Source: a virus. From it: DNA of 33,165 nucleotides. Positions 20,241 to 32,395 of the stretch are shown here, one piece after another (the first letter of the stretch is position 1; each line of letters starts with the position of its first letter). The position numbers and the translations under genes were made by a program. Below the pieces are notes generated by a model, which saw nothing but the letters and a program-made list of their open reading frames with translations, did no database searches and was not told where the DNA came from. Location of the stretch: positions 1 to 33,165 of IMG/VR virus record IMGVR_UViG_3300028394_000210. One strand, written 5' to 3'.

Positions 20241-20293
20241 TGCCCTCGCCAGGGCAACACGCCCGACAGCGTGGGTGCCCCCCCTTGGCGTGT
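20241..20293 (+). terminator. GC-rich hairpins with GGTGCCCCC element 1
   Basis: TGCCCT-CGCC-AGGGCA hairpin, then ACACGCC (20257) pairing with GGCGTGT (20287). The loop holds GGTGCCCCC (20274-20282). No T-run, so terminator function is inferred from position after a gene. Confidence 0.5.
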
Positions 20294-20355
20294 CGTGCCA
20301 AATGTAACAGTTACGTAACAACTACGATTTCTCCTGATTATCTCCTGATTTTTAC

Positions 20356-20384
20356 TAATAAATGTCGGAGGGTAGCCATAGACT
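20356..20384 (+). promoter_or_regulatory. array promoter 3 (TGTCGG-N10-TAGACT)
   Basis: ACTAATAAATGTCGG, 10 bp, TAGACT. Upstream are TTACGTAAC, ACTACGAT and two TCTCCTGATT copies. Drives 20469 through an ~80-nt leader with the GAGCCT repeats. Confidence 0.65.
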
Positions 20385-20399
20385 ATGAACATAAAGAAA

Positions 20400-20445
20400 T
20401 GAGCCTTAGCAAATAAACGAGCAATCGGTGAGCCTAAGCAAATAA
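20400..20445 (+). repeat. paired TGAGCCT(T/A)AGCAAATAA repeat, copy A
   Basis: Two copies 29 bp apart (20400-20416, 20429-20445). Each reads as a five-codon frame (ATG or GTG, then SLSK, stop) in the mRNA leader. A second pair is at 21872-21917. Confidence 0.5.
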
Positions 20446-20468
20446 GTTCTAACAGGAAAGGGAAACTA

Positions 20469-20606
20469 ATGAAGTTTTTAATCACACGCATCGACGGCTC
20501 TGCTCGCAACTACTCTTTTGACTCACGCATTTCTGCCGATGCTCTAAAGTTCTACCGCTGGATGAAGCGTAACGGCAAGATTGCTGACTACAAGATTGTA
20601 GATTAG
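20469..20606 (+). CDS. 45-aa basic protein, unknown
   Basis: MKFLITRIDGSARNYSFD...FYRWMKRNGKIADYKIVD. Alpha/beta character, rich in Arg and Lys. GGAAAGGGAAACTA gives the ribosome site. No known family. Confidence 0.6.
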   Translation: MKFLITRIDGSARNYSFDSRISADALKFYRWMKRNGKIADYKIVD

Positions 20607-20608
20607 CA

Positions 20609-20657
20609 ACACACCCGACAGCGTGGGGGCACCGCCTGTGGATAACTCTGTGTATAA
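20609..20657. repeat. 39-bp direct repeat copy 1 with GGGGGCACC and DnaA boxes
   Basis: 20609-20647 is identical to 21384-21422. It contains GGGGGCACC (20625-20633) and TGTGGATAA (20637-20645). A second box, TGTGTATAA, follows at 20649-20657. Confidence 0.75.
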
Positions 20658-20705
20658 CTTTGTTACGTATCTGTTATAAAACCCCCATAAAAAAGGCGTG
20701 TTTTA

Positions 20706-20736
20706 GCAAATAAATGTCCGAGGGGGTGTTTATAAT
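20706..20736 (+). promoter_or_regulatory. array promoter 4 (TGTCCG-N10-TATAAT)
   Basis: GCAAATAAATGTCCG, 10 bp, TATAAT. Drives 20769. Confidence 0.8.
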
Positions 20737-20768
20737 AAAGGTAGATAGAAAAAGAAATGAGAAATGAA

Positions 20769-20999
20769 ATGAACAAAGAACAAGACTTCCAAATAAACGC
20801 TAATGGCTTTGTAGTGCTAGACGCTCGTGATGGATACCGCCAAGATAACCGCCTATGGTTTGGCAAGTGTTCAGAATGTGGTGATGATGTAACCAACTCA
20901 GCCCTAGATGGTATTTGGCAACACAGACTAATCTTGGCACAAAGCGGTCTAAGCACTACTAGCAGACAGATTGACTACTGCCCTAAAAACAATGTCTGA
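20769..20999 (+). CDS. 76-aa zinc-finger-like protein
   Basis: Starts MNKEQDFQINANGF; the in-frame ATG at 20757 belongs to a leader word (AAAGAAATGAGAAAT) shared with genes at 21528 and 21966. It has CSECGDD, then an HR...C at the end (DYCPKNNV), suggesting a small zinc site. The last codons AAT-GTC-TGA form the TGTCTG of the next promoter. Unknown function. Confidence 0.62.
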   Translation: MNKEQDFQINANGFVVLDARDGYRQDNRLWFGKCSECGDDVTNSALDGIWQHRLILAQSGLSTTSRQIDYCPKNNV

Positions 21000-21014
21000 C
21001 CCTAATGCTAAAAT
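20988..21014 (+). promoter_or_regulatory. array promoter 5 (TGTCTG-N10-TAAAAT), inside gene end
   Basis: The TGTCTG includes the TGA stop of the gene at 20769. Drives 21039. Confidence 0.7.
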
Positions 21015-21038
21015 CAAATCAAGAACAGAAAGAAAAAA

Positions 21039-21164
21039 ATGAACGCTATCCAAATGAAATCTCGATACAACGAACTACTACGCCTAGCAAAGAATGGTGA
21101 CTACTTTTCTATGGCAGAACTTGACGAACTTATCCGCTTGTCGAAAGACTTGGGGATAATCTAA
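21039..21164 (+). CDS. 41-aa helical protein, unknown
   Basis: MNAIQMKSRYNELLRLAKNG then DELIRLSKDLGII. Two amphipathic helices, HTH-sized but too short to call. The upstream AGAAAGAAAAAA is a weak ribosome site. Confidence 0.55.
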   Translation: MNAIQMKSRYNELLRLAKNGDYFSMAELDELIRLSKDLGII

Positions 21165-21221
21165 ATGTCGGTAGCCGTTGTTATGCTTGTTATTGTAATC
21201 GTTGTTCTATTCAATCAGTAA
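21165..21221 (+). CDS. 18-aa hydrophobic micropeptide
   Basis: MSVAVVMLVIVIVVLFNQ, a single membrane-spanning stretch. The ATG abuts the preceding TAA. It reads through an ATGTCGG word with a poor -10 (TATGCT), so the site may now serve as a start codon rather than a promoter. Resembles the peptide at 29698. Confidence 0.45.
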   Translation: MSVAVVMLVIVIVVLFNQ

Positions 21222-21231
21222 AGGAAAAAAA

Positions 21232-21354
21232 ATGTCCCCTACACTATCTTGGATTTTTATCCTATCTCTTGCTTGGGCTTGCCACGCTTGGGTAAATCGT
21301 ATGCACATCCGTTCTTTGCAGGATGAGATTGAGAAGCTTCAGCCTCCGTTCTGA
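21232..21354 (+). CDS. 40-aa single-TM protein with LQPPF tail
   Basis: MSPTLSWIFILSLAWACHAW is a membrane segment; the tail RSLQDEIEKLQPPF is helical. AAAGGAAAAAAA precedes the ATG. The tail matches that of the protein at 23255. Confidence 0.6.
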   Translation: MSPTLSWIFILSLAWACHAWVNRMHIRSLQDEIEKLQPPF

Positions 21355-21383
21355 TACCGCCAACGCCTAGGGTTGTGTCTGCG

Positions 21384-21422
21384 ACACACCCGACAGCGTG
21401 GGGGCACCGCCTGTGGATAACT
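21384..21422. repeat. 39-bp direct repeat copy 2 with GGGGGCACC and one DnaA box
   Basis: Identical to 20609-20647. GGGGGCACC at 21400-21408 and TGTGGATAA at 21412-21420. A GTGTC-TGC-GACAC hairpin lies just before. Confidence 0.75.
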
Positions 21423-21470
21423 TGTTTACGTAATGTTCATTAAATCTCCTAAAAATAAGCTCCTATTTTA

Positions 21471-21500
21471 GCAATAAATGTCGGTGGGTCGTGATACCTT
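21471..21500 (+). promoter_or_regulatory. array promoter 7 (TGTCGG-N10-TACCTT)
   Basis: GCAATAAATGTCGG, 10 bp, TACCTT. Poor -10. Drives 21528. Confidence 0.5.
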
Positions 21501-21527
21501 ATAGGTATAGAAAGAAATGAGAAATAA

Positions 21528-21656
21528 ATGAGAATGAACTTGACCCCTCGTGAAAAGCAAATCCACAAGTGCCAACTTTGTGGTCGCCCTGCCGACTTTG
21601 TTGCGATAATGAAAATCGCTGGCACTAAGTTTCTATGCAATCGCTGTGCAAAATAA
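21528..21656 (+). CDS. 42-aa zinc-ribbon mini-protein
   Basis: MRMNLTPREKQIHKCQLCGR...FLCNRCAK: CxxC plus CxxC with about 25 residues between, a plausible zinc ribbon. The stop TAA is part of the next promoter (AAATAAATGTC). A start at 21534 is possible. Confidence 0.65.
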   Translation: MRMNLTPREKQIHKCQLCGRPADFVAIMKIAGTKFLCNRCAK

Positions 21657-21679
21657 ATGTCTTACCCTACTGCTAAACT
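21651..21679 (+). promoter_or_regulatory. array promoter 8 (TGTCTT-N10-TAAACT)
   Basis: Overlaps the stop of the 42-aa gene. Drives 21705. Confidence 0.65.
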
Positions 21680-21704
21680 AAAAGTAACAAAAGAAAGGAA
21701 CAAA

Positions 21705-21854
21705 ATGTTCACTAACCAAGATGTAATCGTAGCAAGCGTATCCTATGACGACCGCTACTACACCAGCCCATCCTGTGCCGAGTGTGGCGAGTTCTTGTCC
21801 GCAAGAACAATGGCAGACCTAGAAGCCCAAATGCGAGAACACTACTGCGAGTAA
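21705..21854 (+). CDS. 49-aa zinc-finger-like protein
   Basis: MFTNQDVIVASVSYDDRYYT, then CAECGEF and a final HYCE (C-x2-C...H-x2-C). The helix DLEAQMREH between is finger-like. GAAAGGAACAAA precedes the ATG. A longer frame beginning at the ATG of the promoter (21657) is rejected. Confidence 0.65.
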   Translation: MFTNQDVIVASVSYDDRYYTSPSCAECGEFLSARTMADLEAQMREHYCE

Positions 21855-21871
21855 AGTTTTAGGGTCAGGTT

Positions 21872-21917
21872 TGAGCCTAGCAAATAAGTCGGTAAGCCGA
21901 ATGAGCCTAGCAAATAA
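21872..21917 (+). repeat. paired TGAGCCTAGCAAATAA repeat, copy B
   Basis: 21872-21887 and 21902-21917, 30 bp apart, with TCGG-TAAG-CCGA between. The second copy runs into array promoter 9. The first looks like a promoter upstream half without ATGTC. Confidence 0.5.
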
Positions 21918-21940
21918 ATGTCTGACCCTAATGATATTCT
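21911..21940 (+). promoter_or_regulatory. array promoter 9 (TGTCTG-N10-TATTCT)
   Basis: CAAATAAATGTCTG, 10 bp, TATTCT. Drives 21966. Confidence 0.65.
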
Positions 21941-21965
21941 GTAATCACTAAAGAAATGAGAAATA

Positions 21966-22094
21966 ATGAAACCATCCACTTACTTCAAAGTTACTTACTT
22001 GCTTGACGGCAAGCAATGGGTATCCGCTGTTCAGGCTCGTGACTTGACCGCTTTTGTGTTTTCACACAATGTTCTAAAAGTAGAGAGAGGCTAA
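21966..22094 (+). CDS. 42-aa protein, unknown
   Basis: MKPSTYFKVTYLLDGKQWVSAVQARDLTAFVFSHNVLKVERG. A small beta-hairpin plus helix. The leader word AAAGAAATGAGAAAT precedes. It is followed 2 nt later by the next gene. Confidence 0.6.
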   Translation: MKPSTYFKVTYLLDGKQWVSAVQARDLTAFVFSHNVLKVERG

Positions 22095-22096
22095 AA

Positions 22097-22183
22097 ATGA
22101 TAATCCTAACTTTTGAGACTTGGGAAGAGTATGACGAGGCTATTGCCTCAATCGCTACCGCCTACCTACCAGAGGCGGAATAG
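22097..22183 (+). CDS. 28-aa acidic peptide, unknown
   Basis: MIILTFETWEEYDEAIASIATAYLPEAE. It begins 2 nt after the upstream stop and AGAGAGGC is available for ribosome binding. Probably co-translated with it. Confidence 0.45.
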   Translation: MIILTFETWEEYDEAIASIATAYLPEAE

Positions 22184-22198
22184 CGACACGCCAGGGGC

Positions 22199-22207
22199 GG
22201 TGCCCCC
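22199..22207. repeat. GGTGCCCCC element 4
   Basis: GGTGCCCCC after the unit ending at 22183, next to the left arm of the 16-bp inverted repeat. Confidence 0.6.
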
Positions 22208-22250
22208 CGACGTTACCAAAACGTTATTAAATAAGGTTAAGATGTTCCCC

Positions 22251-22276
22251 ATAATGTCTGTGGGTCTTGGTAAACT
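22251..22276 (+). promoter_or_regulatory. array promoter 10 (TGTCTG-N10-TAAACT)
   Basis: TTCCCCATAATGTCTG, 10 bp, TAAACT. Drives 22304. Confidence 0.65.
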
Positions 22277-22303
22277 TGAATTACATCAACGAAAGGACAC
22301 ACT

Positions 22304-22387
22304 ATGTGCGAAGACTACCCTTGCTGCGGACACGACTTTGGAGGTTGCTCTGATTCAGGTCTATTTAGTTGGCAGGAAGAAAACTAG
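22304..22387 (+). CDS. 27-aa Cys-rich peptide
   Basis: MCEDYPCCGHDFGGCSDS... Four Cys and one His in 15 residues could hold one zinc ion. Leader ACGAAAGGACACACT. Peptides starting this way occur in other phages, as far as I recall. Function unknown. A longer frame across 22113-22427 in another frame is not coding. Confidence 0.6.
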   Translation: MCEDYPCCGHDFGGCSDSGLFSWQEEN

Positions 22388-22402
22388 CCAACTCCCTTCG
22401 GG

Positions 22403-22411
22403 GGTGCCCCC
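22403..22411. repeat. GGTGCCCCC element 5
   Basis: Core of GGGGGTGCCCCC (22400-22411), next to a CCC-TTC-GGG hairpin and the right arm of the 16-bp inverted repeat. Confidence 0.6.
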
Positions 22412-22454
22412 GATAACGTTTTGGTAACACTTTACGTAGTGGATTAAAAACCTC

Positions 22455-22482
22455 CTAAAATGTCGGTGGTTCATTCTATAAT
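22455..22482 (+). promoter_or_regulatory. array promoter 11 (TGTCGG-N10-TATAAT)
   Basis: CCTAAAATGTCGG, 10 bp, TATAAT, leader TACAACGAAAGGAAG. Drives 22507. Confidence 0.8.
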
Positions 22483-22506
22483 GTAACTACAACGAAAGGA
22501 AGACTA

Positions 22507-22611
22507 ATGAAAAGGTTTCTAAACCTATGCCAACAGACTGGCAACCCATTCTCAGCAATGTGGATTATGCTTTACTGGACAGACAAGCGAATCGCAAAGC
22601 GTTTCAAATAA
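22507..22611 (+). CDS. 34-aa basic amphipathic protein
   Basis: MKRFLNLCQQTGNPFSAMWIMLYWTDKRIAKRFK. Mid-part hydrophobic, ends basic; may lie on the membrane. The stop overlaps the next promoter. Confidence 0.55.
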   Translation: MKRFLNLCQQTGNPFSAMWIMLYWTDKRIAKRFK

Positions 22612-22634
22612 ATGTCTGTGGTATGCCGTAAAAT
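22606..22634 (+). promoter_or_regulatory. array promoter 12 (TGTCTG-N10-TAAAAT)
   Basis: TCAAATAAATGTCTG, 10 bp, TAAAAT, leader AACTACAACGAAAGG. Drives 22658. Overlaps the upstream stop. Confidence 0.75.
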
Positions 22635-22657
22635 GTAACTACAACGAAAGGAAAACT

Positions 22658-22828
22658 ATGCAAGACACACGCAACCACTATGTAATCGAAATGGACAACG
22701 GAGTTACTTTTGAGGTAGACACACCGCTTGAAGAAGACCAATCAGCATTCTTCATCGACAACTACTACTCTGGGCGTATCTCTCGCCTATGGATAAATGG
22801 CATTGAGTGGCTTGAGCCTACCGAATAA
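22658..22828 (+). CDS. 56-aa acidic protein, unknown
   Basis: MQDTRNHYVIEMDNGVTFEV...ISRLWINGIEWLEPTE. Predicted beta-rich (short strand pairs). GAAAGGAAAACT ribosome site. The stop overlaps the next promoter. Confidence 0.65.
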   Translation: MQDTRNHYVIEMDNGVTFEVDTPLEEDQSAFFIDNYYSGRISRLWINGIEWLEPTE

Positions 22829-22850
22829 TGTCGGTGGCTACCGCTATAAT
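22823..22850 (+). promoter_or_regulatory. array promoter 13 (TGTCGG-N10-TATAAT)
   Basis: GAATAATGTCGG, 10 bp, TATAAT. Overlaps the stop at 22826. Drives 22879. Confidence 0.8.
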
Positions 22851-22878
22851 AAAACTAACAAACAAAGGACAGGAAACA

Positions 22879-23082
22879 ATGGCTAAAATGGCAGACCTAC
22901 TCGCAGAGCAAACCTCTATTCCAACCTTTACCGAAATGGTAGAAGAGTTTGAGGCATTGGTAAAAGCAGAATATCCAAACGACGATTTGGCAATGATTTA
23001 CTCTCGTTGCTATGGCATTGCTTTGGCTCACCTAACAAAAGAACAGATGACCGAAATAATCAAAAACCGAAAGGCTAAATAA
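22879..23082 (+). CDS. 67-aa helical protein, unknown
   Basis: MAKMADLLAEQTSIPTFTEM...YSRCYGIALAHLTKEQMTEI. All-helical. The frame can be extended to the promoter ATG at 22828, but the extension encodes the -10 and leader and is rejected. AGGA precedes the ATG. First gene of a three-gene unit ending at 23389. Confidence 0.65.
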   Translation: MAKMADLLAEQTSIPTFTEMVEEFEALVKAEYPNDDLAMIYSRCYGIALAHLTKEQMTEIIKNRKAK

Positions 23083-23084
23083 TA

Positions 23085-23255
23085 ATGATGACCAGAAAAG
23101 ACTATGTGACCACAGCAGAAATCCTGCGTGGACATCTACCCGACATTGACGACCCAACCTTCGACAGCCTTGTTGAGAGTTTTGGTTTGATGTTCAAAGA
23201 AGACAACGAGCGTTTTATGCTTGATAAGTTTGTAGACGCTTGCTGGGGGGAATAA
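23085..23255 (+). CDS. 56-aa MTRKDY-type phage protein
   Basis: MMTRKDYVTTAEILRGHL...FGLMFKEDNERFMLDKFVDAC. Resembles the many small actinophage proteins starting MTRKDY or MTRKHY, whose function is unknown. Helical. The second ATG (23088) is equally possible. Its stop overlaps the next start (TAATG). Confidence 0.7.
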   Translation: MMTRKDYVTTAEILRGHLPDIDDPTFDSLVESFGLMFKEDNERFMLDKFVDACWGE

Positions 23256-23389
23256 TGAATGATTGGCTTGGTTTGCTTCTTGGCATTGTTGCTTTTGGTA
23301 TTCTTTCTCTTGGGGCAATGAACTTCTATCTACTGCGTGTTATTCGTGAACTAGAGATTGAGAACGAAGGTCTTCAGCCACCCTTCTAG
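23255..23389 (+). CDS. 44-aa single-TM protein with LQPPF tail
   Basis: MNDWLGLLLGIVAFGILSLG is a membrane segment; the tail RELEIENEGLQPPF is helical and matches the tail of the protein at 21232. Translationally coupled to the upstream gene. Confidence 0.65.
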   Translation: MNDWLGLLLGIVAFGILSLGAMNFYLLRVIRELEIENEGLQPPF

Positions 23390-23397
23390 GGTGTGCT

Positions 23398-23406
23398 GGG
23401 GGCACC
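23398..23406. repeat. GGTGCCCCC element 6 (reverse orientation)
   Basis: GGGGGCACC after the unit ending 23389. TTACGTTACGAT and array promoter 14 follow. Confidence 0.6.
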
Positions 23407-23440
23407 GCCAGCCTGGGAAAAGCTCCTTTACGTTACGATA

Positions 23441-23467
23441 ATAAATGTCCCACCCCCAATGTATACT
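23441..23467 (+). promoter_or_regulatory. array promoter 14 (TGTCCC-N10-TATACT)
   Basis: TTACGTTACGATAATAAATG, then TCCC, 10 bp, TATACT, leader ACTAACAACGAAAGG. Drives 23494. Confidence 0.75.
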
Positions 23468-23493
23468 TATACTAACAACGAAAGGGAAACTAA

Positions 23494-24015
23494 ATGTCAT
23501 ACACTAAAATCTATTCCGCTATCGCTAAGAAAGCAACCTTTGGTCAGGTTGAACAAGCCACCAAGTGGTATCTTGATGCAGAGACTGTTGCTCGTGAAGT
23601 TGCTACTAACCTAAACACTACCCTTGAGATTGGAGCAACTGTTGTATCTGCTTTTAGCCCTCGTGAGCGTTGGTCTCGTAATGTTACTAATGCAGTAAAG
23701 TTTTCACTAGGTCACGAACTAAAGGGTGTGCTAGGCAACAACATTCGTATGGCAGAAAAAGGATTGACGCTAGGCTTTGACGCTCTAAAGGGTATGAAAA
23801 CTAACGCCTTTGCTAAGGCTATCGCTGGTAATGAAAATGCAGTCGTGATAGATGTTTGGATGTTGCGAGCATTAGGCATTGAGAAAAAGACACCTACGCA
23901 GTCGCAGTATAAAGAAATGGCAGACGCTGTAACTGCTGTTGCTACTCTGCACGGAATGACACCTAGAGCAATGCAAGCCCTAATCTGGATTGTAGTGAGA
24001 GGGAGTGGCGAGTAA
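23494..24015 (+). CDS. conserved phage protein, possibly HhH-glycosylase-like fold
   Basis: 173 aa, helical. Motifs: VVSAFSPRERWSRNVTNAVK (~52), then KTNAFAKAIAGNENAVVIDVWMLRALG (~102), and a C-terminal MTPRAMQALIWIVVRG. SPR-x-RW...N and A-I-x-G-x(4)-V-x-I-D are recurrent in an actinophage family that, to my memory, resembles helix-hairpin-helix DNA glycosylases. The IDVW position would hold the catalytic Asp-like residue. A base-excision or DNA-binding role is therefore possible but unproven. GAAAGGGAAACTAA precedes the ATG. Confidence 0.65.
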   Translation: MSYTKIYSAIAKKATFGQVEQATKWYLDAETVAREVATNLNTTLEIGATVVSAFSPRERWSRNVTNAVKFSLGHELKGVLGNNIRMAEKGLTLGFDALKGMKTNAFAKAIAGNENAVVIDVWMLRALGIEKKTPTQSQYKEMADAVTAVATLHGMTPRAMQALIWIVVRGSGE

Positions 24016-24029
24016 TCGCTACCCCCAGG

Positions 24030-24038
24030 GGTGCCCCC
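24030..24038. repeat. GGTGCCCCC element 7
   Basis: GGTGCCCCC inside CCCCCAGGGGTGCCCCCCC, followed by TTTACGTTACGAT and promoter 15. Confidence 0.6.
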
Positions 24039-24070
24039 CCTCGCACTCAAACAACTTTACGTTACGATGA

Positions 24071-24097
24071 ATAAATGTCCTACCCATAATGTATACT
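24071..24097 (+). promoter_or_regulatory. array promoter 15 (TGTCCT-N10-TATACT), leaderless
   Basis: ATAAATGTCCT, 10 bp, TATACT, 6 nt, ATG 24104. Confidence 0.75.
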
Positions 24098-24103
24098 AAT
24101 ACT

Positions 24104-24274
24104 ATGAAAAAGAAAAAGAAACCACTGAGTAAACTAAACGAAGCAACTCGCAAGGCTCACTCTAAGGAGTTGTTTGCTAGTCTTATGCTGAATAAGCACC
24201 TTATCGTTACCCCTGAAAACCGCAAGGGAAGTCGTCAAGCAAACATTCGTAAGGCTATCAAGGAGAGTTACTAA
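24104..24274 (+). CDS. 56-aa basic protein, leaderless
   Basis: MKKKKKPLSKLNEATRKAHS...RKGSRQANIRKAIKESY. Strongly basic, helical; may bind nucleic acid. The ATG is 6 nt past TATACT with no ribosome site. An in-frame ATG at 24089 lies within the -10 region and cannot be transcribed from this promoter. One base overlaps the next gene. Confidence 0.65.
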   Translation: MKKKKKPLSKLNEATRKAHSKELFASLMLNKHLIVTPENRKGSRQANIRKAIKESY

Positions 24275-24408
24275 TGATAAGCATCGAAAAACTAATCGAA
24301 CTAGGCGTGTTGCGTAAGTCTATGTTTAGCAATCTAAATAGCGAATGGTATGTTATCTATACCGAGAATGGTCCAGTGGATATTTCTCTTGCTGACCTTA
24401 CTGACTAA
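24274..24408 (+). CDS. 44-aa protein, unknown
   Basis: MISIEKLIELGVLRKSMFSN...YTENGPVDISLADLTD. AAGGAGAG lies in the upstream gene, whose stop overlaps this ATG. The second stop nearby (TAATAA) runs into promoter 16. Confidence 0.6.
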   Translation: MISIEKLIELGVLRKSMFSNLNSEWYVIYTENGPVDISLADLTD

Positions 24409-24435
24409 TAAAATGTCTGTGGCTACCCCTATACT
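24407..24435 (+). promoter_or_regulatory. array promoter 16 (TGTCTG-N10-TATACT)
   Basis: AATAAAATGTCTG, 10 bp, TATACT. Overlaps the upstream stop. Drives 24458. Confidence 0.75.
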
Positions 24436-24457
24436 ATAACTAACAAGAAAGAGAAGA

Positions 24458-24934
24458 ATGACTACTATCGAAAAACTAACCGCAAGCGTAACTACTGACT
24501 GCCTATGCGAGAACGAAGACGGAACACCAGCAAGCGAATGTTTTGACTGCTACGAATGGCAGAAGGAAGACGTTTTCGAGTTGCTAGGGGAATGGCAAAA
24601 GTCTAACAACATTGACGAAGACGACACTATCCTAATCAACGGAACAAAAATGGGTTGGGCTAAACAAGACGGATACAAATACACAAACATTCTTGAACTA
24701 CACGGAGCGTTAGCACTTGACGGAGACTTCCGTATCGAATGGTATCTTGAGAACAACGAACTAACCGCTAGGCGTTGGAGCCACGATGAACCAGTTGGAA
24801 CTGGTTTGTTTACCTTTACTGTCTATCGCTCTTGCGACAAGTGTGGTGAGCCTATCCTTGCTGATGTTCACGCTGAGGAACTTGGTATGTGTGTTGAATG
24901 CTCAAACGCCTACTTCAACCACGAAGACGAATAA
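24458..24934 (+). CDS. 158-aa protein with N- and C-terminal Cys motifs
   Basis: N-terminal CLCENEDG...CFDCYEW, middle beta-rich acidic domain (ILINGTKMGW, FRIEWYLENNELTARRW), C-terminal zinc-ribbon (CDKCGEP...GMCVECS). Unknown family to me. The paired zinc knuckles at both ends suggest a protein- or nucleic-acid-binding adaptor. The stop is part of promoter 17. Confidence 0.68.
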   Translation: MTTIEKLTASVTTDCLCENEDGTPASECFDCYEWQKEDVFELLGEWQKSNNIDEDDTILINGTKMGWAKQDGYKYTNILELHGALALDGDFRIEWYLENNELTARRWSHDEPVGTGLFTFTVYRSCDKCGEPILADVHAEELGMCVECSNAYFNHEDE

Positions 24935-24957
24935 ATGTCGGTAGGTCATTCTATAAT
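24931..24957 (+). promoter_or_regulatory. array promoter 17 (TGTCGG-N10-TATAAT)
   Basis: GAATAAATGTCGG, 10 bp, TATAAT, leader AACTAACAACGAAAGG. Overlaps the stop at 24932. Drives 24982. Confidence 0.8.
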
Positions 24958-24981
24958 AGAACTAACAACGAAAGGTAACTA

Positions 24982-25107
24982 ATGCTCACTAATGACGAAT
25001 GGCAGTTTCTTGCCGAACTACTATACTCAAGCAATAACCCAATGGCTATGAATGTCCTAGACAAACTAGACAACATTGTAATCGAATACGGATTGGAAAA
25101 TGACTAA
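24982..25107 (+). CDS. 41-aa acidic helical protein
   Basis: MLTNDEWQFLAELLYSSNNP...KLDNIVIEYGLEND. GAAAGGTAACTA precedes. Its stop overlaps the next start. Confidence 0.6.
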   Translation: MLTNDEWQFLAELLYSSNNPMAMNVLDKLDNIVIEYGLEND

Positions 25108-25592
25108 TGGGAACTCGCAATCTAACTAAGGTAATCGACAAAGACGGCGTTATCAAGGTAGCACAATACGGACAATGGGATGGCTACCCTAGCGGACAGG
25201 GAATGAACGCTCTCTACCACGCTCACAACCACAAGCAAATCGAAACAGGTTTGGCTCGTGTTCGTTGGGCAGAGCAGGAAGAGTTGGACAAAATCCATTC
25301 TTCATTGCCAGAGATGAACCTTTTTGGAACTGACGACAACAAAAACTTTGGTTTGCTTTATCCTAATCTAACCAGAGATACTTGTGCAGACATTTTAGGC
25401 GTAGTTGCTTGGTCTGTTGGCGAAGTAATCTTGGTTGACCACAGCGACTTTGAGGAAGATATAATGTGTGAGGGTGTTTACACGATTGACTTTCAAAAGC
25501 GAAAGTTTATTTCTTGGTATGGCAGAAAGACATTTGAGTTTGACTTGGATAATCTGCCAAGCAAGGAAGAATACTTGGCTGTTTGGGAGTAG
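25107..25592 (+). CDS. conserved GTRNLT-type phage protein
   Basis: 161 aa. The start MGTRNLTKVIDKDGVIKVAQ and YGQWDGYPSGQG are a highly conserved signature of uncharacterised proteins in many phages and prophages. The C-terminal half is beta-rich (MCEGVYTIDFQKRKFISWYG). The family function is unknown to me. Translation is coupled to the 41-aa gene (start/stop overlap). Confidence 0.75.
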   Translation: MGTRNLTKVIDKDGVIKVAQYGQWDGYPSGQGMNALYHAHNHKQIETGLARVRWAEQEELDKIHSSLPEMNLFGTDDNKNFGLLYPNLTRDTCADILGVVAWSVGEVILVDHSDFEEDIMCEGVYTIDFQKRKFISWYGRKTFEFDLDNLPSKEEYLAVWE

Positions 25593-25611
25593 GGCTTAGG
25601 CTCTACCCCCA

Positions 25612-25620
25612 GGGGGCACC
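25612..25620. repeat. GGTGCCCCC element 8 (reverse orientation)
   Basis: GGGGGCACC, then TTTACGATTACG at about 25640, then promoter 18. Confidence 0.6.
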
Positions 25621-25670
25621 GACTTTACCCCAAACCTATTTACGATTACGTGAATAATCTCCCATTTCCC

Positions 25671-25700
25671 AAAATAAATGTCGGTAGGTCACTCTATAAT
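25671..25700 (+). promoter_or_regulatory. array promoter 18 (TGTCGG-N10-TATAAT)
   Basis: AAAATAAATGTCGG, 10 bp, TATAAT. No gene starts before the next promoter 80 bp on, so it is the upstream member of a tandem pair. Confidence 0.8.
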
Positions 25701-25750
25701 AGAACCATAGCAAAGAAGCAGAAATAAATAACTAAGTCCAGAGCGACAAA

Positions 25751-25779
25751 TAATAAATGTCTGTCCCTCTTGCTATAAT
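25751..25779 (+). promoter_or_regulatory. array promoter 19 (TGTCTG-N10-TATAAT)
   Basis: TAATAAATGTCTG, 10 bp, TATAAT, ~45 nt leader. Drives 25828 together with promoter 18. Confidence 0.8.
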
Positions 25780-25827
25780 GGAGGTATCAACAAAAGTTGG
25801 TATCTAATAACTAATGAAAGAAGCAAA

Positions 25828-25980
25828 ATGAACATCTCTGTTCCTGCTGTTGGCTCGCAGTTCACCACTCTAAAGTCAGGAGTTTCTGGCATTGTTCAGG
25901 AAGTCGTGGCTAACAAGAACGGCACTTATCGTGTCCGTCTTGATGTTGCTGGTCAGCCTCGCTGGTCTACAATCAAGTAA
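25828..25980 (+). CDS. 50-aa small beta-barrel-like protein
   Basis: MNISVPAVGSQFTTLKSGVSGIVQEV...NGTYRVRLDVAGQPRWSTIK. Alternating strands, SH3-like in size. Very similar small proteins occur in actinophages as I recall, of unknown function. GAAAGAAGCAAA precedes the ATG. Confidence 0.68.
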   Translation: MNISVPAVGSQFTTLKSGVSGIVQEVVANKNGTYRVRLDVAGQPRWSTIK

Positions 25981-26019
25981 TCAAATGTGCTGGGTATCAC
26001 CATAAACTACCCAACCACA

Positions 26020-26047
26020 AATAAATGTCCGTAGTCCCCACTATAAT
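26020..26047 (+). promoter_or_regulatory. array promoter 20 (TGTCCG-N10-TATAAT)
   Basis: CAAATAAATGTCCG, 10 bp, TATAAT. Drives 26082. Confidence 0.8.
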
Positions 26048-26081
26048 AGAGTTACAACCCAAAGAAAAAGGAGAACGCCTA

Positions 26082-26531
26082 ATGGCAACACTAGCAGTAA
26101 AAGTCCCAACCCACAAGGTTATCGAAATGATTGAGCAGAAGTTAGCAGAGATTGACGAAGCAATCGCTAACTACCCTGCTCTTGTTCTGGCTTACAAGCA
26201 AGCACAGGTAGAGTTTGAGAAGTCACTCGTTGCTCTTACCATTGACGCTCTAACCAACAAGCCAGAGTTGATTGGTAGCGAACACAATGACCCTATTCGT
26301 GTGTCTGTAAATAACTACTCACGACCTAGCGTAAATGTTTCTATTGACGCTGACGCTCTTGGTTTTCCAAAGCCACCTGTTAGCCCAGACAACCCAGACA
26401 GCAAAGAGTATGTTGGTCGTGAGTATGTTTCCAAGCGTGAAATCTTGATGAACACTCTTCGCACTCTCCGTATGACGGAACAGGAAACTATCAACGCAAG
26501 CACTTATGCGAATGTGATGAAGTTTCTCTAA
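26082..26531 (+). CDS. 149-aa helical protein, unknown
   Basis: From MATLAVKVPTHKVIEMIEQ, with AAAAAGGAGAACGCCTA upstream. The frame can be extended to the promoter ATG (26025), which is rejected because the extension encodes the promoter. Long N-terminal coiled coil (~10-55), then beta strands (IRVSVNNYSRPSVNVSID) and a C-terminal helix pair (REILMNTLRTLRMTEQETI). Could be an oligomerising structural or DNA-associated protein; no family recognised. Confidence 0.65.
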   Translation: MATLAVKVPTHKVIEMIEQKLAEIDEAIANYPALVLAYKQAQVEFEKSLVALTIDALTNKPELIGSEHNDPIRVSVNNYSRPSVNVSIDADALGFPKPPVSPDNPDSKEYVGREYVSKREILMNTLRTLRMTEQETINASTYANVMKFL

Positions 26532-26575
26532 ACTGAAACACCACCTGAGTATGTGGCTAAACTGCTCACCCTAGG

Positions 26576-26584
26576 GGTGCCCCC
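26576..26584. repeat. GGTGCCCCC element 9
   Basis: GGTGCCCCC (CTAGGGGTGCCCCC), then TTTACGAT and C-tract before promoter 21. Confidence 0.6.
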
Positions 26585-26626
26585 AAAGCTTGCTAGTATC
26601 ATTTACGATAGGCATTAAGTTCCCCC

Positions 26627-26655
26627 AAATAAATGTCCGAGGTAGGCATTATAAT
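26627..26655 (+). promoter_or_regulatory. array promoter 21 (TGTCCG-N10-TATAAT), leaderless
   Basis: CAAATAAATGTCCG, 10 bp, TATAAT, 6 nt, ATG 26662. Confidence 0.8.
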
Positions 26656-26661
26656 AAAGGT

Positions 26662-26787
26662 ATGAAAGATGAACAAGCAGAAGAAATCATTGCCAACCTA
26701 AAAGACTATTTCGAAAACCCAGAGGACTACTCACTGGAAGAATGGGAAGACATTTTTCAAGACCGTGACCCTTTTGAGTTTCTATAA
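26662..26787 (+). CDS. 41-aa acidic protein, leaderless
   Basis: MKDEQAEEIIANLKDYFENPED...EDIFQDRDPFEFL. Very acidic, helical. The ATG is 6 nt past TATAAT. An upstream ATG (26590) in frame would lie before the promoter and is rejected. The stop overlaps promoter 22. Confidence 0.65.
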   Translation: MKDEQAEEIIANLKDYFENPEDYSLEEWEDIFQDRDPFEFL

Positions 26788-26813
26788 TAAATGTCCGTAG
26801 TCCCCTTTATAAT
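26787..26813 (+). promoter_or_regulatory. array promoter 22 (TGTCCG-N10-TATAAT)
   Basis: ATAATAAATGTCCG, 10 bp, TATAAT. Overlaps the end of the 41-aa gene. Drives 26839. Confidence 0.8.
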
Positions 26814-26838
26814 AAAACTAATCACAAGAAAGAAGAAA

Positions 26839-27315
26839 ATGGAAGACATCAACAACACACCAGACTTTACCCCTAATACTCACCCTGTTCTACAAGCCCT
26901 CAATGAGAAGGTTGCCAAGTTAGAGAACGACCTATCTCTAATGACTGCCCAGAAGGATGCTGTAACAAGAGAAAAAGAGTTTATCAACACTCAACTAATC
27001 AACGCTCGTGACAAGTATCGTTCGGCAGAGTATTCACTTACTGACCTACTCAAAGAGTTGATTACTGACGAAGACATCACCATTGAGAACGCCCAGCGTA
27101 TCGCAGACATCTTCGACAATGTATTGCTAACCAAGCGTGTAACCATTCGCTACGACATTGTTGCTACTGTTGAGTTGGAAGTTCCATTCGGCAAGGAAGA
27201 CGACGAAGTAGCAGACAACACCTATTGCGACAGAGTTACTTTTGAGACCTATGAAGAAGACAGCGAAGTTCTAGAAGTAGACTTTGATGTTACGGATTGG
27301 AATGTAGTTTCATAG
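26839..27315 (+). CDS. 158-aa coiled-coil protein
   Basis: From MEDINNTPDFTPNTHP. A coiled coil (~20-80: LNEKVAKLENDLSLMTAQKD...) is followed by a beta-rich acidic C-terminus (RVTIRYDIVATVELEVP...). The promoter ATG extension (26791, MSVVP...) is rejected. Unknown function; could oligomerise. Confidence 0.65.
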   Translation: MEDINNTPDFTPNTHPVLQALNEKVAKLENDLSLMTAQKDAVTREKEFINTQLINARDKYRSAEYSLTDLLKELITDEDITIENAQRIADIFDNVLLTKRVTIRYDIVATVELEVPFGKEDDEVADNTYCDRVTFETYEEDSEVLEVDFDVTDWNVVS

Positions 27316-27361
27316 GGGGCTATGAACGTCCTGAGCATGACGGTAAAAAGCTCCCTTTAGG

Positions 27362-27370
27362 GGTGCCCCC
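27362..27370. repeat. GGTGCCCCC element 10
   Basis: GGTGCCCCC, then ATTACGTTCATTTACGAT and a C-tract before promoter 23. Confidence 0.6.
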
Positions 27371-27430
27371 GCCTAACCCAAATCTCTATTACGTTCATTT
27401 ACGATAACCCCCATTTTCCCCAAGATAAAT

Positions 27431-27459
27431 AAATAAATGTCTGAGGGTCTTGCTATACT
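27431..27459 (+). promoter_or_regulatory. array promoter 23 (TGTCTG-N10-TATACT)
   Basis: AAATAAATGTCTG, 10 bp, TATACT. Drives the DUF932-like gene at 27498. Confidence 0.8.
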
Positions 27460-27497
27460 AAATACATCAGCAAATCCACTAATGAAAGGTGACCACT

Positions 27498-28517
27498 ATG
27501 GCTCACGAACTAGAAATAGATGAACTAACAGGCGAGGCTTCTTTTGCCTCGCTTCGCCAACCTGCTTGGCACAACCTCGGAACTGTCTTTGAAGAGGAAG
27601 TCAATACCCAGCAAATGCTAAAACTCGCACACCTTGACGAATGGAATGTTCGCCTTGAAGATGTTGCTATCCCTGAGAACTTTGAGAGCGACAAGTCTTA
27701 CTCATTCGTTACTCGCACAAACCCATTTGACAAAACCAAGAACGATGTTCTAGGCGTTGTTGGTGAGCGTTATGTTCCACTACAAAACGAAGACCTATTT
27801 TCGTTTGGGGATAACCTACTAGACGGCGGAGGTCGTTGGGAAACCGCAGGTTCAATCAAGGGTGGCAGACAAGTCTTTGGCTCTATTGCTTTGACTAACT
27901 CTATCACGCTAGACCCAAAGGGCATTGCCGACAAGATAGACAACTATCTGCTAATCAACACAAGCCACGACGGAAGCATCGCTATTCAGGCAAGCATTAC
28001 CCCTGTTCGTGTAGTCTGTGCTAACACTCTCAACCTTGCTCTGTCTTCATTCAAGGGCAAGAAAGCAGCCAAGCAATCTTTCAAAATCCGTCACACCTCT
28101 ACTGCCGAAGGCAAGATTTCTGTTGCTCGTGAGGCTTTGGGATTGGCTAACGCCTACATTGACGAGTTTAGCAAAATGGCTAACGAGATGATTGGCAAGA
28201 CTATTACCGACAATCAGTTTATGGAAATCGTTACCCTTGCTTACCCAGAACCAGAGAAAGACGCTAAGGGTTCGTTCAAGAAATACAATGGCAAGGTTGA
28301 TTTGCTACAAGGTATCTATCGTGGCGAATACAACGACACGATTGCTGGAACGGCTTGGGGGGCATACAACGCTCTAACCGAACGCCTAGATTGGTATCGC
28401 TCGGCTCGTGGTGGAAGCAACGAAAGCATTTACGCTTCTGCTTCTGGCTTTGACCCTGTGATGAACGCAGAGAAAAACCGCTTGATGAAGATTGTTCAGC
28501 AGGTCGTAATGGCGTAA
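27498..28517 (+). CDS. DUF932 / TIGR03299-type phage-plasmid protein
   Basis: 339 aa. N-terminus SLRQPAWHNLGTVFEEEV, then VLGVVGERYVPLQNED, LDGGGRWETAGSIKGGRQVFGSI and VVCANTLNLALSS match the phage/plasmid-like family known as DUF932 (TIGR03299), present in plasmids, phages and integrative elements. The role is unclear; family members have been linked to plasmid maintenance or recombination functions. GAAAGG lies 8 nt before the ATG, after an ~40-nt leader. The start at 27489 is a GTG inside the ribosome site and is rejected. It is the largest gene of the rightward region, alone in its unit. Confidence 0.82.
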   Translation: MAHELEIDELTGEASFASLRQPAWHNLGTVFEEEVNTQQMLKLAHLDEWNVRLEDVAIPENFESDKSYSFVTRTNPFDKTKNDVLGVVGERYVPLQNEDLFSFGDNLLDGGGRWETAGSIKGGRQVFGSIALTNSITLDPKGIADKIDNYLLINTSHDGSIAIQASITPVRVVCANTLNLALSSFKGKKAAKQSFKIRHTSTAEGKISVAREALGLANAYIDEFSKMANEMIGKTITDNQFMEIVTLAYPEPEKDAKGSFKKYNGKVDLLQGIYRGEYNDTIAGTAWGAYNALTERLDWYRSARGGSNESIYASASGFDPVMNAEKNRLMKIVQQVVMA

Positions 28518-28532
28518 GCCATTCTTCCTCTG

Positions 28533-28574
28533 GCTCTCCTGCCCTTATGGGTGGGGGAGCTGGGCGGTGCCCCC
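28533..28574 (+). terminator. terminator-like hairpin plus GGTGCCCCC element 11
   Basis: GCTCTCC..CCC-TTAT-GGG..GGGGAGC (28533-28560) is a strong stem after the DUF932-like gene. GGTGCCCCC (28566-28574) follows. No T-run. Confidence 0.55.
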
Positions 28575-28619
28575 CTCCCAGGGCAACCAGGCTATTTACG
28601 ATAGGCTTACGATTCCCCT

Positions 28620-28648
28620 AAATAAATGTCTGAGGTTGTATGTATACT
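28620..28648 (+). promoter_or_regulatory. array promoter 24 (TGTCTG-N10-TATACT)
   Basis: CTAAATAAATGTCTG, 10 bp, TATACT, leader AACAACAAGGAAAGG. Drives a multi-gene unit starting at 28675. Confidence 0.8.
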
Positions 28649-28674
28649 AATAACAACAAGGAAAGGAAACCCTA

Positions 28675-28854
28675 ATGCCAACTTACAATGTAAAAGTAGT
28701 TGTTGAATACGAATACGAAGTAGATGTAGAGAACGAAGAACTAGCCGAGAAAGAAGGCTGGAACTACGAAGAGTATGCTCACCACGCTTCCGTCTATTCG
28801 ATAGATGTAGAAGAACTAGAAGACTATGACGAAGAGGAAGAGGTAGAAGACTAA
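28675..28854 (+). CDS. 59-aa acidic VEANDP-family protein
   Basis: MPTYNVKVVVEYEYEVDVENEELAEKEGW... ends in an acidic tail (DYDEEEEVED). A strand-strand-helix form shared with genes at 29370, 30463 and the start of 29892. GAAAGGAAACCCTA ribosome site. First of a cluster of tightly overlapped small genes. Confidence 0.65.
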   Translation: MPTYNVKVVVEYEYEVDVENEELAEKEGWNYEEYAHHASVYSIDVEELEDYDEEEEVED

Positions 28855-28994
28855 TGGCTTTTGACCCTAATCGTAAAACAGGTGACTTACTACCCCCTTG
28901 CCCTAAGTGTGGCAGGATTGATAAGTATAATGTTTCAGAACATACCCACGACCTAGACCACATTTTTGGATTTGGAGACCCAGATGACGACTAA
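28854..28994 (+). CDS. 46-aa zinc-site mini-protein
   Basis: MAFDPNRKTGDLLPPCPKCGRIDKY...EHTHDLDHIFG. One CxxC plus an HxH...H cluster, able to hold zinc. The ATG overlaps the upstream stop by one base. Confidence 0.6.
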   Translation: MAFDPNRKTGDLLPPCPKCGRIDKYNVSEHTHDLDHIFGFGDPDDD

Positions 28995-29097
28995 CATCGA
29001 AGACTATCGTAAACTCTTAGAGGCTATAATGTCTGAGGGGCTTGCTAAAATAGAAGCACTATCAGATGAAGAACTGAGAAAGGTTATAAATGAGTAA
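28984..29097 (+). CDS. 37-aa helical peptide
   Basis: MTTNIEDYRKLLEAIMSEGLAKIEALSDEELRKVINE. Starts inside the end of the 46-aa gene. The middle codons form an array promoter word (TGTCTG-N10-TAAAAT) at 29030. Coding and promoter uses may both be real. Confidence 0.55.
   Translation: MTTNIEDYRKLLEAIMSEGLAKIEALSDEELRKVINE
29027..29051 (+). promoter_or_regulatory. array promoter 25 (TGTCTG-N10-TAAAAT), intragenic
   Basis: ATAATGTCTG, 10 bp, TAAAAT inside the 37-aa gene. Would drive 29090 and following genes. Confidence 0.5.
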
Positions 29098-29173
29098 ACA
29101 CGAACACACTTGGATTTGCGACTTCTGCGAATGCGGAGCGTATCTAATAACCCCACCAAAGAAGGATAAATAA
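29090..29173 (+). CDS. 27-aa Cys-rich peptide
   Basis: MSKHEHTWICDFCECGAYL...KKDK. CDFCEC and two His, possible zinc knuckle. The ATG overlaps the previous gene's stop by 8 bp and its own stop overlaps the next start (TAATG). Confidence 0.55.
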   Translation: MSKHEHTWICDFCECGAYLITPPKKDK

Positions 29174-29373
29174 TGGCTGATTACTTTTCACACGATTCTG
29201 CTTGGATTGCAGACGACGGTTCTTATGGAGCAGGTCTGGTTATGTATTTTAGCCCTGACGCCCTGACCGAAGAACAATGGGATGTTCTAGATAACCTAAA
29301 TGACGGAGCGAAGTTTGACTATGTTCACGCTGTTCTAAATAACGAAGACCTATCGGAATGGGAAGACAGATGA
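29173..29373 (+). CDS. 66-aa acidic protein, unknown
   Basis: MADYFSHDSAWIADDGSYGAG...FSPDALTEEQWDVLDNLND. A helix-rich C-terminal half after a beta start. Coupled to both neighbours by overlapping stop/start codons. Confidence 0.62.
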   Translation: MADYFSHDSAWIADDGSYGAGLVMYFSPDALTEEQWDVLDNLNDGAKFDYVHAVLNNEDLSEWEDR

Positions 29374-29543
29374 CTAAGTATCTTGTTACAGGTTACTACA
29401 CTACCCCTTGGACTATTGAGGTAGAAGCCAATGACCCAGATGAAGCATACAAACTTGGCTATGATGCTTTGTTCTATGCTAACGAGGGTAACGAAGGCGA
29501 AGGCGAATGGCTAGATGAACTAGAAGTAGAGGAAGCAGAATGA
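29370..29543 (+). CDS. 57-aa VEANDP-family protein
   Basis: MTKYLVTGYYTTPWTIEVEA then NDPDEAYKLGYDALFYANEG, acidic C-terminus. Strand-strand-helix layout shared with 28675, 30463 and 29892. ATGA overlap with the previous gene; an upstream in-frame ATG at 29358 is rejected. Confidence 0.65.
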   Translation: MTKYLVTGYYTTPWTIEVEANDPDEAYKLGYDALFYANEGNEGEGEWLDELEVEEAE

Positions 29544-29698
29544 CCCAGATAGAAAGCCTATTGGCAGAACGCAAAGCAATCGAAAAGGACTATCAGAAGT
29601 TTGGCACTAAGTTAGACCCTTGGACCCATGACCTATTTATAAATAGACTAGACATGATTGAGGATATGCTTGATAACGAAGGATACTACAACCGATAA
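29540..29698 (+). CDS. 52-aa helical protein, unknown
   Basis: MTQIESLLAERKAIEKDYQKF...INRLDMIEDMLDNEGYYNR. Two helices. ATGA overlap with the previous gene. Stop overlaps the next start. Confidence 0.6.
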   Translation: MTQIESLLAERKAIEKDYQKFGTKLDPWTHDLFINRLDMIEDMLDNEGYYNR

Positions 29699-29757
29699 TG
29701 TCAGAGTTAGTAGTTATATTGTTAGTGTTTGTAATACTTTGGATATTTAGCCAGTAG
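29698..29757 (+). CDS. 19-aa hydrophobic micropeptide
   Basis: MSELVVILLVFVILWIFSQ, single membrane-spanning stretch. The ATG overlaps the upstream stop (TAATG). Similar in length, start (MS-V) and ending (Gln) to the 18-aa peptide at 21165. It reads through a TGTCAG-N10-TATATT word, so this site may also be a weak promoter. Confidence 0.5.
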   Translation: MSELVVILLVFVILWIFSQ

Positions 29758-29763
29758 GGAGCT

Positions 29764-29771
29764 GGGGCACC
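29764..29771. repeat. GGTGCCCCC element 12 (8 of 9, reverse)
   Basis: GGGGCACC after the 19-aa gene. Two ATTACGATG words and a C-tract lead to promoter 27. Confidence 0.55.
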
Positions 29772-29840
29772 ATCCCTATGTATCTTTATTAATATACTTT
29801 ATCTATTACGATGCATTACGATGTTCCCTAAATTTCCCCT

Positions 29841-29869
29841 AAATAGATGTCGGTGGTCTGTCGTATACT
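29841..29869 (+). promoter_or_regulatory. array promoter 27 (TGTCGG-N10-TATACT)
   Basis: AAATAGATGTCGG, 10 bp, TATACT, leader AACTACAAAGAAGGAG. Drives 29892. Confidence 0.75.
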
Positions 29870-31913: not shown

Positions 31914-32117
31914 ATGCGTAAGAAACTAATAACACCAGAACAGAAAGTAGCGACTAAGATAGCAAGTCTAGTTAGTGATGTAACAATTGACTTAGAACAA
32001 GTAGGTATCTCAATCGCAAGGGATAATCCCAATGTAGTCTATCGAAGATTACAGGAAATCGCAGAAGTAGCAGAACACGATAAAATGTCGAAGGGTCAGG
32101 GTATAATAGAAGTATGA
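31914..32117 (+). CDS. 67-aa basic helical protein
   Basis: MRKKLITPEQKVATKIASLV...PNVVYRRLQEIAEVAEHDKM. Helical, basic N-terminus. Its last 12 codons encode an array promoter (TGTCGA-N10-TATAAT), and the stop overlaps the next start by ATGA. Confidence 0.65.
   Translation: MRKKLITPEQKVATKIASLVSDVTIDLEQVGISIARDNPNVVYRRLQEIAEVAEHDKMSKGQGIIEV
32081..32107 (+). promoter_or_regulatory. array promoter 29 (TGTCGA-N10-TATAAT), intragenic and leaderless
   Basis: ATAAAATGTCGA, 10 bp, TATAAT, then 6 nt to ATG 32114. Lies wholly in the end of the 67-aa gene. Confidence 0.75.
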
Positions 32118-32395
32118 ACACACCAATAGAAACACAAACAGAAATCCTAGCAGAACTATGGATGGACTATCGTGACGAGCAATACTTTGCCGAGTTCTTT
32201 GAGTATGCTGACTTAGGTTTGCCACTAGCCTATCTACTCAACACAGGCACAGTTGTTCGTAATCCAGAGACAGACAGATTTATTGGCGATACTTGGTCAG
32301 TATTCTTAGGTATCTGTGGACACAATGAAGACACAGGCTTTGAGTATCTAGTAGATGTCCTAGTAGATAGTCCATTCGACCTCAAAGACGAATAG
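32114..32395 (+). CDS. 93-aa conserved actinophage-type protein
   Basis: MNTPIETQTEILAELWMDYRDE...FEYADLGLPLAYLLNTG...FIGDTWSVFLGICGHN...GFEYLVDVL. The LGLPLAYL and W-x(3)-L patches recur in unnamed actinophage proteins. Leaderless by its promoter position. Last rightward gene in the window. Confidence 0.72.
   Translation: MNTPIETQTEILAELWMDYRDEQYFAEFFEYADLGLPLAYLLNTGTVVRNPETDRFIGDTWSVFLGICGHNEDTGFEYLVDVLVDSPFDLKDE

Follow-up and report, generated by a model that had tools for sequence, protein, structure and literature searches.

A lineage-specific sequence tag at the ends of early transcription units in related phages, a probable protein-binding site

Introduction

What does a short GC-rich sequence do when it stands after one transcription unit after another, pointing either way, and changes from one phage to the next? 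The question was raised by a 33,165-base IMG/VR virus record from an incomplete phage genome (the whole record is called the window here). The right half of the window is rich in small genes, grouped into short units that each have a promoter-like element of their own.

Results

Tag copies in the window. The 9-mer GGTGCCCCC occurs in the window in 11 exact copies, 7 on the plus strand and 4 on the minus strand, whereas 100 dinucleotide shuffles gave an expectation of 0.03 and a maximum of 1. A sequence-only reading of the window had counted twelve copies of the 9-mer. Twelve is the correct count for the 8-bp core GGGGCACC, which is common to all sites, but not for the 9-mer, because the twelfth site keeps the exact core and has a mismatch in the longer sequence. 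The twelve tags are as follows:

20274..20282, plus strand, tag copy 1, GGTGCCCCC
20625..20633, minus strand, tag copy 2, DnaA-box-like TGTGGATAAC directly downstream
21400..21408, minus strand, tag copy 3, TGTGGATAAC directly downstream
22199..22207, plus strand, tag copy 4
22403..22411, plus strand, tag copy 5, directly after CCC-TTCG-GGG
23398..23406, minus strand, tag copy 6, GGTCGGGC at the corresponding site of relative G001
24030..24038, plus strand, tag copy 7, upstream 30 nt identical in G001, tag there GGTCGGGC
25612..25620, minus strand, tag copy 8
26576..26584, plus strand, tag copy 9
27362..27370, plus strand, tag copy 10, GGTCGGGC at the corresponding site of G001
28566..28574, plus strand, tag copy 11, strong hairpin (-26 kcal/mol) before the tag
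29763..29771, minus strand, tag copy 12, TGGGGCACC, one mismatch in the 9-mer, core GGGGCACC exact

All twelve are intergenic and lie within 20274-29771, and no copy of GGTGCCCCC or GGGGCACC was found elsewhere in the window, inside genes or otherwise. Each lies 5 to 49 nt past a stop codon, which bears out the placement after the last gene of units, and about 45 to 89 nt before the next promoter of the ATGTC..TATAAT type (distances for the two nearest tags, 23398 and 24030, were read by eye). The use of both orientations (7 plus, 5 minus) and the AT-rich background (about 39% GC in the window) were also as first described.

Neighboring motifs. Early promoters at 20362-29851 and in the relatives share an ATGTCNG element, preceded by AATAA in the window and by TTGACA in several relatives; the remainder of the promoter element varies by lineage (ATGTCGGTGG, ATGTCAGTGG, ATGTCAGACCCC). 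The sequence CGACACGCC/GGCGTGTCG, found near 20250-20295 and in many relatives (such as L012, L114, and L123), appears repeatedly close to tags and ahead of promoters; its sequence, unlike that of the tag, is constant between lineages. TTTACGA/TTAAGA motifs follow most tags (20300-29820 and the G-series phages); they are also repeated many times toward the end of the terminal repeat in cluster BE. The first tags of the region have a DnaA-box-like TGTGGATAAC immediately after them, in many cases in tandem (20637 and 21412; also L014, L015, and L114). In the structural-gene half of the window, TCTGGAACA occurs in 10 copies versus 0.34 expected and is probably an internal protein repeat.

Different tags at matching places in relatives. 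Relatives were viral contigs fetched through three proteins of the record. The 9-mer is almost absent among them, even from the closest relative (L112/G001), whose proteins are 90-95% identical and which carries its own tag, GGTCGGGC, in 16 copies at matching transcription-unit ends. The two phages share an identical 30 nt upstream of the tag at 24030, where the tag alone differs; clear alignment extends to both sides at 23398 and 27362, and at several other sites only the downstream side aligns well. Matching sites do not always have the tag in the same orientation. Further relatives carry GGCCGACC, GCGCGGCC, GGGGTACC, GGCTAGCC, GCCCGGGC, GGGGACCC, GGTCGATC, GGTCGGCA, and others; tags called in 43 early regions comprise about two dozen versions, and some relatives (short fragments or contigs with weak signal) had no callable tag. 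The search of related phages for the 9-mer, proposed at the outset, showed that its place is shared with relatives and its sequence is private to the phage of this record.

In the best-tagged large genomes (G001, G002, G008, and G010), tags are confined to an early region of ~9-13 kb; in some other contigs, a weak signal or a common 8-mer kept confinement from being judged. Among relatives with long contigs, 2 of 171 tag copies lie inside conserved genes or open reading frames. The contig G006 has an identical 8,517-bp overlap of its ends.

Symmetry and probable drift of the tag set. Palindromy of the tag set was 0.646, compared with 0.431 (standard deviation, 0.050) for shuffled tags. The nearest-neighbor distance between tags was 1.21 changes, compared with 1.91 (standard deviation, 0.14), and 0 of 500 shuffles were as close. 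Because tags were called partly by enrichment and then used in the statistics, within-phage uniformity is inflated. Three genomes hold one-base mixtures: GGGCG[A/G]CC in G003, GGCCGC[A/C]C in G005, and GGGGCGC[A/C] in L143. Most phages with a non-palindromic tag use both orientations, and all seven tags of G010 have one orientation. Given the symmetry enrichment, the single-base closeness, and the mixtures, tag variation looks like the drift of a family of sites with a two-fold symmetric reader protein, not like wholesale replacement.

These results bear on the suggestion that the elements are recombination seams, or copies of a small mobile repeat that has spread. Such an origin would agree with the many identical copies in each genome and with the unit-by-unit mosaicism of the early region. 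However, positions are kept while the sequence is replaced, at one site next to an identical 30-nt upstream flank, no longer repeat surrounds the tag, and the one-base mixtures and single-step network argue for drift, so that we regard this origin as highly improbable. Neither the single copy at each unit end nor the lineage-specific replacement is consistent with Chi-like or REP-like repeats. The proposal of a protein-binding site is instead supported by the two orientations, the two-fold symmetry, and the turnover of sequence between phages at fixed positions; the tag is probably a DNA-binding site.

Tags in cultured Streptomyces phages. The cluster BE phages were reached via the DUF932 gene described below. 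Their direct terminal repeats are ~11 kb long (PMC5764925), and at each unit end within the repeats a UUCG hairpin is followed by a tag and then by a promoter. In complete cluster BE genomes, every CCGCCCCGG copy among the matches listed, which reach partway into the sixth of eight genomes, lies in the two terminal repeats, a confinement seen for cluster BE alone. Karimacvirus phages and Riptide carry CCGCCCCGGC, and Samistivirus phages carry the related TGTCSGGSCCCGGACA. A single tag is common to Karimacvirus phages isolated on S. griseus, S. lividans, and S. scabiei, and phages of S. griseus carry two tag types; the tag is thus determined by the phage, and determination by the host is contradicted.

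At the repeat end, in the phages examined, a conserved putative small RNA is followed by a tag, and no gene is annotated past this point. The stretch of the putative RNA (about 740-840 in L280, NootNoot, and at the same place in L282 and L286) combines long complementary arms with a promoter-like sequence of its own and gave no Rfam match.

This terminal tag is relevant to the idea that tags are operators of the early promoters that follow them, at which a repressor or activator would switch off or tune pre-early genes. The next promoter element does lie about 45-89 nt downstream, with TTACG/TTAAGA motifs between it and the tag. That distance is too great for direct occlusion, however, many early promoters within units lack a tag (the window has 27 promoter-like elements and 12 tags), and the cluster BE tag lies past the final transcript of the repeat. 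An operator role therefore appears unlikely.

Hairpins and transcript ends. A hairpin of -5 kcal/mol or better precedes 81% of 323 tags compared with 41% of nearby positions, a difference that is partly compositional because the control positions were not GC-matched. The hairpin ends no more than a few bases upstream of the tag, and some copies directly follow UUCG or GAAA hairpins. A stem with a T-rich tail on the transcribed strand was found at 1 of the 12 tag sites (29763), and the Rfam search gave no family at threshold. One tag of L112 is placed after a tRNA; together with the putative small RNA, this points to action where transcripts end more than at promoters. Because tags come after presumed transcript 3' ends and usually after a hairpin, they could plausibly be roadblock-type terminators.

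The same data could be read at the level of RNA, hairpin and tag then being a joint signal in the transcript, either a variant terminator or a protection against decay; as the hairpin forms, the RNA:DNA hybrid would lie at the tag. The frequent upstream hairpins, including the UUCG and GAAA cases, and the tRNA and small RNA contexts agree with this. An RNA motif, though, should not tolerate both orientations in the same context, perfect 8-bp palindromes cannot make their own hairpins, a GC-rich tag would give a stable hybrid (the opposite of a U-tract), and no Rfam family was recovered. We think it unlikely that the tag works as RNA. Also rejected was an RNA that would act in trans by pairing with the tag: all 16 copies of the G001 8-mer lie in the tagged region, with none elsewhere in 93 kb.

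Candidate tag readers. The proteins of the window that were considered include the following:

32114..32395, plus strand, 93-residue acidic all-helical protein whose family similarity tracks tag identity beyond background
27498..28517, plus strand, DUF932 protein, the sole tag-region family found in both the environmental and the cluster BE phages
26082-26531, 149-residue protein, conserved at both ends and highly variable in the center

A first gene-versus-tag scan (partial Mantel) gave nothing that passed correction. In a relatedness-corrected comparison of 32 phages, similarity within the 93-residue family was associated with tag similarity (partial r, -0.356; permutation P = 0.0004; clade-restricted P = 0.0008); because about 60 families were examined, the association is borderline to significant after correction. 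Genes neighboring that of the 93-residue protein showed no association with tags. At the level of residues, the association is diffuse, and the net charge of the family, -12 to -21 in 32 of 32 members, is unusual for a DNA binder. The protein matched nothing in sequence-family searches. Its model (pLDDT, 92.6) had no significant match in a fold search, in which the weak Foldseek list contained many XRE-type helix-turn-helix chains; a second look at the fold returned generic helical bundles only (Z below 4). The protein was not found in cluster BE phages (nine Streptomyces phage genomes, searched without a positive control), so at best it would explain one branch. It is the clearest lead and may be a partner, a specificity factor, an antagonist, or a coincidence; its direct involvement is a tentative idea that we would not favor.

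DUF932 is unlikely to set specificity alone, as pairs of 95-96% identity have different tags and the association was weak (P = 0.014); apparent 100% identical pairs with different tags were fragments of one mixed-tag phage. The 149-residue protein is 35% identical to its G001 counterpart between flanking genes that are 70-95% identical, and it has no Pfam or PHROG match. It was rejected as a reader since it is nearly identical, by eye, in G006 and G021 despite their different tags and showed no tag association. Helix-turn-helix proteins of the replication block were also rejected, with recognition helices conserved across phages that have different tags. A gene swap in Riptide, a BE1 phage with a BE2-type tag, yielded no DNA-binding candidate.

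Discussion

A working model can be proposed from these observations. The tag would be an 8- to 9-bp double-stranded DNA site, one for each early transcription unit, placed just past the last gene of the unit and usually just past an RNA hairpin. A phage-encoded and probably dimeric DNA-binding protein would recognize it in either orientation and, once bound, would most likely block or insulate RNA polymerase at early-unit ends. Each early unit would then be controlled by its own promoter only, and the units could be shut off together. Protein and sites would drift jointly in single-base steps, which would account for the lineage-specific versions of the tag. We infer the existence of this protein, its phage origin, and its effect on termination. 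That the tag acts on transcript ends, as a block or an insulator, seems to us evenly balanced, and we give the whole stoperator-like model, in which the protein insulates or terminates early units, the same even weight. One difficulty is that hairpin and roadblock do not obviously cooperate, because a polymerase stopped at a tag-bound protein would halt before the hairpin is fully made.

A more speculative proposal, which we hold to be possible but doubtful, is that tags form a lineage-private address code: a new DNA-binding system, in a large group of virulent actinobacterial phages, that would mark every pre-early transcript end in the first-entering DNA and exist in many versions, perhaps blocking cross-control of early genes between coinfecting phages.

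Multicopy sites that turn over in concert offer a rare view of a protein and a dozen sites coevolving, and two dozen tag versions with several intermediates are at hand for such a study. Since the hairpin-tag unit occurs in culturable Streptomyces phages, the delimiting and shutoff of terminal-repeat (pre-early) genes are directly testable. Tags are also a quick marker of early regions in uncultured phage genomes.

Comparison with known systems

No published description of such tags was found in the open-access literature, and the cluster BE paper (PMC5764925) does not mention them. The closest parallel is with the stoperators of cluster A mycobacteriophages (L5, Bxb1, and Trixie), in which 20 to 30 short identical sites per genome, mostly away from promoters, are proposed or shown to block elongation, and the motif differs among relatives and drifts with the repressor (PMC6550527). 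Tags resemble stoperators in number, in place (many intergenic copies of one site), and in drift. Stoperators, however, are 13 bp long, predominantly in one orientation relative to transcription, and bound by the immunity repressor of temperate phages, whereas tags are 8-9 bp long, occur in either orientation (mixed in the window and in most relatives), adjoin hairpins, and are confined to the early or terminal-repeat region. The phages are apparently virulent; no tyrosine integrase was found in 26 related records, many of them incomplete. Tags would thus work like stoperators but are not classed with them, because the orientation rule fails and there is no known repressor or sign of lysogeny (judged from tyrosine integrases only).

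A second parallel is phage T5, which carries its pre-early genes in the terminal repeat; the way in which they are turned off is an open question (PMC7472727). The size of the cluster BE repeats has been set against that of the T5 and SPO1 repeats (PMC5764925); the likeness to the first-step-transfer DNA of T5 lies in the terminal repeats. Finally, tags share with intrinsic (Rho-independent) terminators a hairpin shortly past the last gene, but in place of the U-tract there is mostly a GC-rich, lineage-specific 8-mer.
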